Shown piece after piece: positions 51,317-55,857 of a DNA stretch of 64,000 bases. This DNA comes from Phialocephala subalpina (Eukaryota; Ascomycota; Leotiomycetes; Helotiales; Mollisiaceae). The stretch is from NCBI GenBank assembly GCA_900073065.1, contig FJOG01000066.1:104150-168149 (forward strand). Direction: 5' to 3'. Each line of letters starts with the position of its first letter. Positions within the stretch are counted from its first letter, which is position 1. A program made the position numbers and the translations under genes. The notes beneath the pieces were generated by a model, which ran no database searches, was not told where the DNA came from, and saw only the letters and a list, made by a program, of their open reading frames with translations.

Positions 51317-54300
51317 TTACCACCAAGATTGGCCACTGCCACCTCCAGATGGGTTGCCATAGCTTCCACCGCTAAAGCCACCACCATATGAAGGAGCACC
51401 ACCACCGTAGGCAGCTGGAGGAGGAGGTCCACCAAAGCCACCGCCGTATGCAGGGGCAGGAGCACCACCATATCCACCACCAGAGCCAAATCCTGGTCCA
51501 CCTCCAGCACCACCTCCGAATTTACGGAAATCGCGATTGGCTGCACCTCCACGGCCTCGGCCACCAGAGCGTCCACCACCACGTCCGCCACCTCCAAAGC
51601 CAGAGCCCTCACGAGCAATGTTCTCGAGGAATGCTGGAACGTCTTGGTTGGCCTCCTTGAGAAGATCGATGAGATCACGAACTACACCACGGTTGCCACG
51701 GTTGAAGAAGGCAGTGGAGATACCAGTGTTTCCGGCACGACCAGTACGACCGATTCGGTGGACGTAGTCATCGATATCAGTGGGGAGATCGTAGTTGACG
51801 ACGTGCGTCACGTTCGGAATATCAAGTCCACCTTAAAGCAAGGTTAGTTGATGTTTGAAGCATAATCGAAACGTTTTGACAAAAAGAAAAGAGTCCAGAA
51901 AGAGTCCAAAAGTCCCTGATTAGTGGGGAGAATTAGTCGAGCTTAGAGCTCGACGTGTTGGGTGTGGAAGGAACGAAAGGAGGAATACATACGAGCAGCA
52001 ACAGCGGTAGCGACCAAGATTGGGCATCGGCCATTACGAAACATTTCCAAAGCTCTTTCACGCTCGCGCTGGGTTCGGTCGCCGTGAATCGAGGTTGCAG
52101 GGAAGTTTTGGTTGATGAGGAAGTCAGAAAGGGAGTCGGCCATGCGCTTTGTCTCGACGAAGATCAAAGTAAGACCAGCGCCGTGAGTGTGGAGAATATC
52201 CAAAAGAACGGAGCGCTTGTCCATGTCCTCAACGTACTCGACCTTCTGAGTGATGTTCTCGGAGGTAGAACCAACGCGACCAACGGACAAGAAGACGTAG
52301 TCCTTCAAGAAATCTCTGGCAAGCATCTGAATGTCTCTGGGGAAAGTGGCAGAAAACATGAGAGTTTGGCGGAGCTGAACACCTGGCATATCCTCGCCCT
52401 CAACAATGCGACGAATTTGAGGTTCGAAACCCATGTCCAACATACGATCAGCCTCATCGAGAACGAGGTACTTGATGTTGCAGAGGGAGATACGGCCACG
52501 TTCGATCAAATCGACAAGACGACCTGGGGTGGCAACGAGGAGATCGCAGCCTCCTATAAGGAATGATTAGTCAATGAATTGAAGCTGTTTGAAACGTGAT
52601 GATGGTGCTGTGACAGAAAGAAAGAGTCCGGTAGTAATGAGATAGTTCGAGCTGAGGATGAAGCTGCATCATGAGCCGTGATATCGATGTTCGGACGGCG
52701 TCCAAAAAGTTCCAGTGTTGACGACTTAGACGAGCTCAAGAGCTCGCCGTCGCCGCCGCTGCAGCCGCCGCCGCCAATACCCTGAGCTTCTTGGCGTGTG
52801 GTTTTCCGTTGAGATGGGTTTCAAGCCTCTTGGCAGAACAAGCAGCATGTTGGCAGGGTTCGCACCAATGCGTCTTATTCGCCACAGCTCTTGGAGAACC
52901 ACCTGAGCCTTTGAGGACTTTTCGGACGCCGGTGGCCTTCTCTTGGACCTTTTTGAGGTGTAGAGGTGTCAGCAGGTGAGTTGATAGCTTCGCGTCGCAG
53001 TCAAAGGTTTGAATGCAGACATCGCACTTGAAGTTCTGCTCTTCTAAGTGCTTCTCTGCGCAGGCCTTCGTTGTGAGAGCTTTGGCGCCTGGTACTCTGT
53101 TGGCTTCGCGTCTGGCAACGGAGGCAGCCTTTCTCTCGGCAGCAAGACGGTTGATCTCCTCGGGTGTAGCGTCCTCGTGGTGAGCTCCGATTTGTTCGTT
53201 TATCGAGAAATGATTGCAGCAGCCATCATAGGTAAAGCTCTCGCGAGACCAGGGACAGAGCGCAGGCATAAAATAGTCCTTTGTACGACTCCTCATAGCC
53301 CAAAAGCAGAGAGCGAAGACAGACTCCAGTATGAGGAAGAGGCAGCGAAGCTGAAATACATCCGAAGCCATTGGTAAAGCGGCCCAGCACAGTAGGCATT
53401 TATGAGTGATGTTATAGCCTTCTTGCAGGGACGTCTCGACATAGTGAGGAATGGCAGAATTGGCAGCCCCGGTTTGTATTCTTTTGTCGTACTGGGACAT
53501 TCTTTTCCGAATGCCATATGTGCCCTCAGTACCACTGCCAATGTAGATGCGAGGGCGACGAGCTGGATCTTCATGCTCAAGCACCAAGAGGTAGACGGCC
53601 CAGAGCTTCTCAAGATGTAGCGGAAGAGTCTTGAAGTAGGATATCGTGGGAGGAATGGGAGACTGAAGTGTCTGCAGCAGGCCGGGAGCAAACTGGAATG
53701 GGATTCGCTGCATGAGATTCTCCATTGCGCTCTGCGTAGGAAAGGCAATTTCGTGCTCGAGATTCTTGAGAGCACGACTGGTAAGAGACAGGCAGGTCCA
53801 GGCAAGCCATTGAATCAAGACTGAGATGTCATTGAAGATCACCAGCTTGGCTAGGAAGGTCAATTCTTCGCTGGCAATCAAGACCGTCGTCGCCGTGGTG
53901 GTTGATTCTTCGTCGGCGGTCAGGTCTTCGTTGGCGGTCGAACGCTTCAGAGAAGCCTTGTCGGTTGACGAAGATTCAGAAACAGCGGTCAAGCCCAGTG
54001 ACTTGTTGACAATGGTCGTCTTCTTGGATGGTGCAGGTGGCTCCGAAAGTACTTTTTGAACCGTCCCCTAGTACAGATATAAGTGATTTTGAAATCACTT
54101 AAATCGGGGGCCCCGATTTGGACAGAACGGGAGCTTACCCTGTTCACCATGGTCATCAAGGGCTTCTTGACCTTGTCGATTGGTGTAGAGTTTCGACCAG
54201 CGGTCATGTTCTTGACGGCATTGTTGGCGGCAATAGTGGACAGTGGTTCTCGGCTTGTGGTCGACGGTCGGACGGCGTCCAAACTCTTGAGGGACTTGCT

Positions 54301-55857
54301 GGCGGTGACGGTTGAAGGAGACTCCAAGAAGGCGTCAATGTTTCTCTTCTTCGACGTGCTCCAGCTGGTCAACATGTTAGGTGCCTTGACCTTGGCCTTG
54401 GATCCTCGGACGGCGTCCATTGCCAGTGAAGCCCCAGAGGCGGTCTCCTCCTGTCCAATGTCAGTGATATAAGTGATTTGGAAATAGGTTAAATGCTTAC
54501 CAAGTACTGTGAGGTGATCTGCTGCTCGCTCAAGGACCAGGAGATAGCAGATCCAGAGCAATTGAACTTGCAGCAGCAGAAGCTTGACGCAGGAGGTTGT
54601 GGTCGAGATCAGAGAATCTCTTGCGGACAGGATCGAATTGATTTCCAGTGTTCTCCAGTGTTCTCCGGTGCAGGGAGAGATGTGGTGAAGATGAATCACG
54701 GTCCATGATGGAAGGAACTTTTGTAGCACTTGCTACTTCACGGAAGGAAGGTGTGTTGTGTTGGGTTAGTTGACGGGGAAGGAACGAAAGGGACTACACA
54801 CGCTCGATTTGGCGGAGTTGAGAACCGATGTCGGCACCACCGTAGACAACGCAGGGTCGGACCCATGATCGGTAGGCGAACTTGCGGGACTCGTCATAGA
54901 TCTGAGACACAAGTTCACGGGTGGGAGCAAGGATCAATGAGGTTGGGTATGCCTTGCGTTGGCGACCGAAGTTTCCTGCAGCACCTGCCGGGGGAGCAGA
55001 AGGACCGTTGATGAAGGCTTGGGAAAGGATTGGGAACAAGAATCCACCAGTCTTTCCGGAACCAGTTTGGGCACAAGCCATCAAGTCACGACCACCCATG
55101 ACAATTGGGATGGAGTACTTCTGGACTGGTGTAGGAACTTTGTAGTGTGCAAGCTCGATGTTCTTAATGAGGTGGTCGTCGAGGGGAGGATTCGTGAACT
55201 TGAGAACGGGCTCGGGGACATCGTGTCCGGAGGCTTCGACTGGGATATCGTCATACTTCTCGAAGTTGATACCGGTTTGTTGCTTGGTTGGGTCATCTGC
55301 CACGCCGAAAAGCTCACGCTCGAGACGTGGATTAGCAGGACCAGCAATGTGCTTGCCATCGCGCCATTGGCCATCACCACCACCACGAGCTGGAGCAGGG
55401 CTTCCGCCACCGCTACCACCACCAGTAGAGGGATTACCGTAGGCATTTCGGTTGAATGCTGCAGGCTCCTTGTAAGTATCCCATCCAGGACGTCCAGCAG
55501 GCGCAGGACCAGCGGGGTCATTACCACGAGGTTGAAAGTCAGGAGCAGAAGCCCAGTTTCCACCAGCACCGGGACGAGGTGCGTCACCTGCAAAGCCGTT
55601 TCTGCTTGGGGAAGTACGTTAGCATGCCATCAATATATTGCGAGGATAAATATTCTTTGAGAAACTTACGCAGCAGGTCCCCAAGCGCTACCGTTGATAC
55701 CACCATTCATTGGGGGTCCGCCGTTGGGAACTGGCCCAGGCCCAGGAGCAGGTCCGCCCATCTTACCTCGCATATGAGGAGGGATGTAGGATCGTTGCTC
55801 AGCGCCGCCAGGTCCGCCGTTGAGGTTGAGGCCGTTCATGTTCAGATGGTCCGCCAT
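51317..55857 (-). CDS. DED1: DEAD-box ATP-dependent RNA helicase Ded1
   Basis: Four exons on the minus strand (55857-55670, 55601-54802, 52553-51993, 51831-51317) give 687 aa. All helicase motifs are present: the Q-motif region ([12 protein letters not shown]), AQTGSGKT (I), PTRELVSQ (Ia), TPGRL (Ib), LDEADRML (II), SATFPR (III), and [11 protein letters not shown] (VI). The N-terminus is Gly/Pro-rich and the C-terminus is a long RGG/YGG-rich region, as in yeast Ded1. It unwinds structured leader sequences during translation initiation in the cytoplasm. Introns 2 and 3 are homologous to each other; intron 2 (52554-54801) contains a whole gene on the same strand. Splicing at the given borders restores the conserved [14 protein letters not shown] and AAR-GLDIP sequences exactly. 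Confidence 0.95.
51832..51992 (-). other. DED1 intron 3, short member of an intron-element pair
   Basis: 161 bp, GTATGT..TAAG, phase 1 within an Arg codon before Gly (AAR-GLDIP). It is two to three times longer than the other introns in the window. Its ends and middle align with both ends of intron 2: near the donor GGAAGGAACGAAAGG and GTGTTGGGT (+ strand), then the TTAGTCGAGCTTAGAGCTCG block against TTAGACGAGCTCAAGAGCTCG, then the GAGTCC, GAAACGT and TTGAAGC blocks near the acceptor. Confidence 0.85.
52736..54420 (-). CDS. GIY-YIG nuclease-like protein with two C2H2 zinc fingers, nested in DED1 intron
   Basis: Two exons (54420-54139, 54067-52736) give 537 aa. Residues 1 to about 240 are Ser/Thr-rich with no fold I recognise. 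A GIY-YIG-type module follows: AVYLLVLE near 251 (GIY strand), PRIYIGSG near 265 (YIG), Arg residues in GIRKRMSQY, and the Glu of LILESVF near 337, so the usual Tyr, Arg and Glu positions appear occupied. Its extension ([16 protein letters not shown]) recalls a fungal nuclear GIY-YIG family. C2H2/matrin-like fingers lie at about 440-465 (CDVC..H..H) and 495-520 (CEPC..H..H). The tail is an Ala run. The gene is on the same strand as DED1 and wholly inside its intron 2. The ATG at 54420 was chosen because upstream frames do not join in phase. Endonuclease activity is inferred, not shown. Confidence 0.82.
54480..54620 (-). repeat. Partial duplicate of the GIY-strand coding sequence
   Basis: Upstream of the nested gene, the minus strand encodes [11 protein letters not shown], matching [11 protein letters not shown] of the nested gene (about 53573-53610) with roughly 70% nucleotide identity over some 37 bp. 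It is out of frame with the gene's first exon and probably a leftover from an earlier copy. Confidence 0.5.

Follow-up and report, generated by a model that had tools for sequence, protein, structure and literature searches.

Putative homing introns of the spliceosomal type, with GIY-YIG endonuclease genes, in DED1 and other housekeeping genes of Phialocephala subalpina

The DEAD-box RNA helicase gene DED1 of the fungus Phialocephala subalpina contains two homologous introns, one of which encloses a gene for a predicted endonuclease with a GIY-YIG domain and C2H2 zinc fingers. The gene was studied in a window of 64,000 nucleotides (nt), positions 104,150 to 168,149 of contig FJOG01000066.1 (assembly GCA_900073065.1); in the genome that we searched (68.1 Mb, 119 contigs) the window lies on contig C70, and DED1 with all its parts described below lies on the reverse strand. 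Judged from sequence, the DED1 introns and the family to which they belong are quite probably nuclear spliceosomal homing introns. They look like self-copying selfish introns because introns of this family carry a nuclease gene and sit in many conserved genes of fungi. Directly observed are the gene structure, the restoration of host proteins, the fold and active site of the nuclease, the position inside genes of every family copy found in this genome and the nuclease C-terminus left in the smaller intron. A wider proposition seems likely too, if held with somewhat less confidence: cellular spliceosomal homing introns would be widespread in filamentous ascomycetes, where a GIY-YIG/zinc-finger family invades housekeeping genes by way of ordinary introns, passes between fungi by gene or by site and leaves nuclease-less introns behind, with palindromes at the start and stop codons as part of the mobile unit.

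One could picture the following cycle. The unit would be a long intron with GT-AG ends, placed in a housekeeping gene that is conserved and enclosing the endonuclease gene on the same strand. Removal of the intron by the spliceosome would keep the host gene working; in a cross, or in fused mycelium, the enzyme would cleave an allele without the intron, at the insertion site or close to it, and repair would then copy the intron from the allele that has it. Lineages would persist by gene or site and decay into nuclease-less introns, of which the smaller DED1 intron may be an example. In all of this, we infer splicing, expression, cleavage and homing from sequence.

The two DED1 introns and the nested gene

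DED1 extends from start to stop codon over 51317..55857 (the start was read by eye). Both introns interrupt an arginine codon in phase 1. Intron 2 (52554..54801; 2248 nt, GTGTGT..TTATAG), a GT-AG intron which carries the nuclease gene, divides the codon as C/GA in ER/GCDLL; intron 3 (51832..51992; 161 nt, GTATGT..TTTAAG), the putative nuclease-less derivative, divides it as C/GT in AR/GLDIP. With the two introns excised, the DED1 protein could be aligned to human DDX3X, and neither junction showed a gap. An earlier, sequence-only reading had placed both introns exactly and had taken them to be homologous; the homology was borne out by comparison with 2000 dinucleotide shuffles of intron 3. The donor-side alignment of introns 3 and 2 scored 48.5 (shuffle mean 22.7, maximum 39.5), the acceptor-side alignment 67.5 (37.7 and 58.0), and the whole of intron 3 against the joined ends of intron 2 scored 71.5 (44.4 and 68.5); in each case none of the 2000 shuffles reached the observed score. 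The sequence GGAAGGAACGAAAGG was present at only two places in the 68-Mb genome, namely in DED1 introns 2 and 3 (the reversed-pattern control gave one forward and one reverse place).

The same reading had described a full GIY-YIG plus zinc-finger gene inside intron 2 on the same strand, and we did find there, on the DED1 strand, an open gene with a nuclease fold and C2H2 fingers. It would comprise 537 codons with one in-frame intron (coding sequence 54420-54139 plus 54067-52736). The predicted first coding exon (54139..54420), which starts at MDAVRG, joins in frame with the main coding exon (52736..54067) across a putative GT-AG intron of 71 nt (54068..54138), placed by splice signals and frame only; the main exon encodes the GIY-YIG domain (residues about 150-254 of the open reading frame, ORF) and the C-terminal C2H2 zinc fingers. 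A further intron of 51 nt is possible upstream (54451..54501), with an 86% match over 29 nt to the 71-nt intron. The nested gene seems to have introns of its own; by eye, 54068-54138, 54451-54501 and a stretch of the nuclease-bearing intron of ATP1 (see below) share AAATCACTTATATC, and GGACNNCGTCC palindromes were seen in both DED1 intron 2 and the ATP1 intron.

The GIY-YIG motif residues of the DED1 nuclease ORF are Y159, G177, R189 and E248, with Y159, R189 and E248 invariant. The elements of the fold follow the order strand-strand-helix-helix-strand-helix and bear the catalytic Tyr, Arg and Glu, as in the GIY-YIG superfamily. From this fold and the conserved active-site residues, intron 2 seems to encode a homing-type endonuclease. 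The family seems to lie beyond the reach of the Pfam model PF01541, which had no match to the window ORF at an expectation value (E) of up to 10 and none among the Pfam matches listed (25 of 145) for the 78 members of our protein alignment (built with 77 of the 85 homologues that the first protein search had given); the sole PF01541 match in this genome is at C14:162658. The zinc fingers of the window copy matched Pfam weakly (best E 0.072), and zf-C2H2 was matched by 67 of the 78 members at E up to 10 (best 7.5e-08).

Frame 0 of intron 3 reads NTSSSKLD followed by a stop, so that the central block shared by the two introns consists of C-terminal codons of the nuclease family with their stop codon. 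A C-terminus with SSS or similar to SSxLD was counted by pattern in 32 of the 85 homologues of the first protein search. Because SSSKLD-stop, a C-terminus of the nuclease family, can still be read in it, DED1 intron 3 appears as a nuclease-less remnant, from which the gene body is gone and in which the last codons and the stop are kept; the proposal that it is a deletion derivative of a nuclease-bearing intron gains from this retained end. Further copies of the 161-bp intron, for which that proposal had suggested a genome check, were absent: the DNA search of the genome returned a single copy, intron 3 itself.

Nuclease-bearing introns at seven loci

Genome searches with the DED1 protein, the CHC1 protein and one other protein of the family converged on seven loci. 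All seven nuclease copies lie between exons of conserved genes and on the strand of the host (DED1, CHC1, CPA2, ATP1, GPI1, UFD4 and a tricalbin-like gene, SMP/C2), in agreement with the idea, raised with the sequence-only reading, of looking for the family inside other introns. The carrier introns outside DED1 have lengths of 2027 nt (CHC1), 1931 nt (CPA2), 2217 nt (GPI1), 830 nt (SMP/C2 gene), 1035 nt (UFD4) and about 2166 nt (ATP1). The match at C115:534812 (E 1.2e-4) was not counted, as it covers only zinc-finger residues 290-352; the rows C115:1070498, C38:809074, C43 and C39 had E > 0.01 and are outside the seven.

Flanks on both sides matched the host family at DED1, CHC1, UFD4, CPA2 and ATP1; for GPI1 and the SMP/C2 gene a Pfam match was found downstream and none upstream, and the two sides are linked by an in-frame join and by recognition by eye. 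The joined exons of CHC1 aligned to clathrin, and those of CPA2 to CPS1, with no gap at the junction; the joined exons of UFD4 aligned to TRIP12, again with no gap at the junction, although a gap of 4 residues lies four residues upstream. Excision restores the host protein by alignment in DED1 (two introns), CHC1, CPA2 and UFD4, and yields an in-frame join only in GPI1 and the SMP/C2 gene. Restored host proteins, nuclease fold and active site support the original idea of a nuclear spliceosomal intron element with its own endonuclease gene. No match to a group I or group II intron signature was found by Rfam at gathering score in the window and the six other loci (112,106 bases); the carriers would be spliced as GT-AG spliceosomal introns, without a group I/II signature.

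The nuclease ORF is open at three of the seven loci (443 codons at DED1, 390 at CHC1, 409 at ATP1). By eye, the CPA2 and GPI1 copies are frameshifted, the copy in the SMP/C2 gene is without the segment bearing the catalytic Glu, and the UFD4 copy has His for the first motif Tyr. Together with DED1 intron 3, the seven loci can be read as a series from open to empty. One could also think of a nested host gene of the usual sort, serving the cell in DNA repair, for example, which came to lie in introns by chance; the three open ORFs would suit such a gene, but the other four loci are decayed, a motif Tyr is changed at ATP1 and the host genes differ between species, and we regard this explanation as very improbable.

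A different possibility is that a free-standing GIY-YIG gene or transposon was inserted into pre-existing introns, the intron being a safe harbour and not the mobile unit. It would fit the intron ends of different hosts, which, by eye, are mostly unalignable (outside DED1 the introns could not be aligned end to end), as well as the CHC1 and GPI1 ORFs, which begin about 600-800 nt inside the intron. We compared the words shared by eight introns, with ORFs removed, to those of 60 shuffle sets. Five 8-mers were present in at least five of the eight introns (shuffle mean 0.02, maximum 1): TTTTGGAC, TTTTTGGA, TTCCTTCC, GCTCGACT and TCTGGACT, one of which is a plain pyrimidine tract. On the sense strand the motif TGGAC was counted 37 times against about 7 expected from the shuffles, and its complement GTCCA 7 times against about 5; 19 of the 37 came from CHC1 and CPA2, and three of the eight introns exceeded all of their own shuffles. 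Since non-coding 8-mers and TGGAC exceed the shuffles, the introns of the family have more in common than the nuclease alone. This speaks against insertion into pre-existing introns, as do the likeness of DED1 introns 2 and 3 on both donor and acceptor sides despite their different positions in the gene and the host-strand orientation of seven copies out of seven; we consider such insertion unlikely. As for other introns sharing sequence with the DED1 pair, nuclease homologues and short words are indeed common to them; the 161-bp sequence itself is not.

Palindromes are found at the ends of the nuclease gene. In DED1 intron 2 a palindrome, or hairpin, GGCGAGCTCTTGAGCTCGTC (52729..52748), runs across the nuclease stop codon, and in intron 3 the SSSKLD codons and a hairpin coincide in GTCGAGCTCTAAGCTCGAC (51936..51954). 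The stop-codon pattern GTCGAGCTCTNAGCTCGAC, which can fold into an 8-bp hairpin, was exact at three places in the genome, in DED1 intron 3 and in the introns of CHC1 and CPA2. Just these three exact places are informative: with up to two mismatches the palindrome was no commoner (9 rows) than its reversed control (8 rows), and two inexact places, C51:543842 and C68:471937, have by eye the appearance of ordinary genes. When six copies were aligned, pairing was seen in 91.7% of cells, a level reached by 24 of 500 shuffles, and two pairs are changed on both sides (8 of 500 shuffles had as many), which suggests that the pairing is conserved in these six related copies. The stop codon moves within the pattern, from SSS-stop in CHC1 to SSSQLD-stop in CPA2 and SSSKLD-stop in DED1 intron 3; because of this shift, the pattern seems to be kept as nucleotide sequence and not as peptide. 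AAAAGTACTTTTGGA was found at four places in the genome (none in the control); one of them, on C38, is outside the nuclease family and resembles, by eye, an upstream region.

In the CHC1, GPI1 and CPA2 introns the nuclease start codon lies within another palindrome, ATCGTGGNNCACGATGGC, which is kept at the nucleotide level, though the CHC1 protein is only 50-55% identical to the CPA2 and GPI1 ones. The sequence ATCGTGGNNCACGAT, which overlaps the start codon in the same three introns, occurs at 22 places genome-wide (reversed control: two forward, one reverse). Fourteen of these are within about 10 kb of contig C112 (13 in C112:1180500-1190400), on both strands, within long open frames and between them; six of the other eight places are in the CHC1, CPA2 and GPI1 introns.

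Relatives in other fungi and the nuclease lineages

Three protein searches gave 85, 41 and 236 hits (120 of the 236 were listed, 116 unused); the 201 distinct listed proteins were compared with a panel made of the host genes met here and aconitase. Among the matches listed, eight relatives run into host exons. The nuclease models are fused to DED1 in Lachnellula willkommii and Glarea, to aconitase in Vermiconidia, Diaporthe, Lachnellula subtilissima, Zymoseptoria and one JGI protein, and to clathrin in Meristemomyces; three more relatives are named cpa2 (Elasticomyces twice, Neophaeococcomyces). The fused models are gene predictions that locate the host gene only. The insertion site is clear for L. 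willkommii DED1, whose model follows DED1 as far as residue 272 of joined exons 2-4, the point at which exon 2 (817 nt) ends and intron 2 is inserted here; it is not clear for Glarea DED1, Meristemomyces clathrin, Zymoseptoria aconitase or the proteins named cpa2. The clathrin part in Meristemomyces begins far downstream of the CHC1 site found here. Species that were looked up belong to Leotiomycetes, Dothideomycetes, Sordariomycetes, Eurotiomycetes and Lecanoromycetes. Cadophora, like Lachnellula and Glarea, is among the named sources of relatives, which would suit a fungus of the Helotiales. The proteins P0048 and P0136 of Elasticomyces elasticus are different nucleases of the family, both named cpa2, which suggests two such introns in one gene. 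Pattern scans, of limited sensitivity or reach, gave 25 hits in viral contigs and 4 in prokaryote genomes with no relative of the family confirmed; none was confirmed in phage records either, a search of limited reach.

In a FastTree phylogeny of 207 sequences (P0046, with most of the nuclease domain missing, was omitted from this and from another tree), a DED1-type clade of 40 tips with support 1.0 included the window copy and the Glarea DED1 nuclease and none of the six other copies of this genome. These fell into different lineages: ATP1 with P0118 (support 1.0), CHC1 with P0125 (0.94), CPA2 with P0073 and P0068 (0.997); the partial or decayed copies from GPI1, UFD4 and the SMP/C2 gene were placed weakly (0.55-0.76). 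Each of the seven copies was nearest to a protein of another source and not to another copy of its own genome. Copies in separate lineages are what gene- or site-specific inheritance predicts.

The tree bears as well on an autonomous introner, that is, an intron-making DNA transposon with ectopic insertion, for which GIY-YIG would serve as transposition enzyme and intron 3 would be a non-autonomous copy. Two homologous introns at different positions of DED1, one without the enzyme gene, would be natural for such an element, and so would the invasion of the same genes by different lineages. On the other hand, there is no multicopy family, the 161-bp intron being single copy; the nearest relatives of all seven nucleases are from other sources; and some host genes are met again in other fungi (DED1, CPA2, aconitase, clathrin). 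An introner of this kind is, in our judgement, rather improbable.

Several observations weigh against homing introns as the explanation. PF01541, a PDB profile search and Foldseek each failed, taken alone, to show a nuclease fold. The ATP1 exons are not joined in frame with the simplest splice sites, so this intron calls for a very short exon beside it or for a different choice of splice sites, and Cys replaces the second motif Tyr in the ATP1 nuclease. A host is known for only two of the 40 tips of the DED1-type clade; both are DED1 and no tip has another known host. The exon flanks of the two DED1 sites were not significantly alike, and ectopic homing from one to the other by such similarity gained no support (8 of 16 bases match; 59 of 1876 positions are equally good, and other flank lengths were similar or worse, the best giving 30 of 1872). 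The nucleases linked to CPA2 (4), aconitase (5) and clathrin (2) are scattered in the tree; because they are not monophyletic, these genes were probably invaded more than once, or ectopic moves took place.

Relation to known introns

The nearest known system is that of mirusvirus shintrons, named in November 2025, which encode HNH, GIY-YIG and other endonucleases; according to PMC12768974, endonucleases of these kinds were previously unseen in association with spliceosomal introns. Shintrons and the fungal introns have in common GT-AG ends, no group I/II signature and encoded endonucleases, GIY-YIG among them; a preference for particular conserved genes, described for shintrons, may hold for the fungal introns too, and homing, proposed for shintrons, would operate here as well (PMC12768974). 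They differ in that shintrons reside in viral genes (capsid, terminase, jelly-roll and others), whereas those of Pezizomycotina interrupt housekeeping genes of the nucleus, encode C2H2 zinc fingers and have among them a derivative that lacks the nuclease. In the open PMC literature (subscription papers and bioRxiv are outside this scope) we found no account of cellular genes with spliceosomal introns that bear a nuclease, and the term 'shintron' appeared in one other paper, on an unrelated subject. The most fitting class for the DED1 introns and their family would be the spliceosomal homing intron, in a cellular variant found in fungi.

In comparison with I-TevI and other GIY-YIG homing endonucleases of group I introns, the carrier here would be spliceosomal and not self-splicing (no Rfam match), and the fungal family is too distant in sequence for PF01541. 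Introner-like elements of fungi are known to be multicopy. Like them, the DED1 pair consists of related introns that interrupt a nuclear gene at separate positions; unlike them, DED1-type introns do not form a multicopy set in this genome, and their family has a nuclease gene. If an introner is defined as a group of at least two highly similar introns in one genome (as in PMC12768974), DED1 introns 2 and 3 are significantly alike, the 161-bp intron matches itself alone at the DNA level and no larger group was found. Group I introns of nuclear ribosomal DNA bear homing endonuclease genes that, according to the title of PMC9548176, contain spliceosomal introns; they too are selfish nuclear introns with a nuclease gene, and spliceosomal introns within that gene are predicted here as well, but their carrier is a group I intron, while here it would be a spliceosomal intron in protein genes.

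The origin of nuclear spliceosomal introns is an old open question, for which the present family offers a candidate mechanism. One genome holds the enzyme, the carrier intron, several stages of decay and the nuclease-less product, and the carrier fungi are of kinds in which crosses and cleavage assays are possible. If true, this reading would make homing a direct and selfish way for nuclear genes to gain introns. Mobile introns of a kind so far described, in the open literature, only from giant viruses would then occur in cells too, and essential nuclear genes would hold natural homing elements.

Elsewhere in the window, we observed AT-rich blocks at 32001-34000 and 36001-40000, with a G+C content of about 0.29-0.30 against 0.44-0.46 beside them. 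In fungi, repeat-induced point mutation is known to produce AT-rich blocks such as these.

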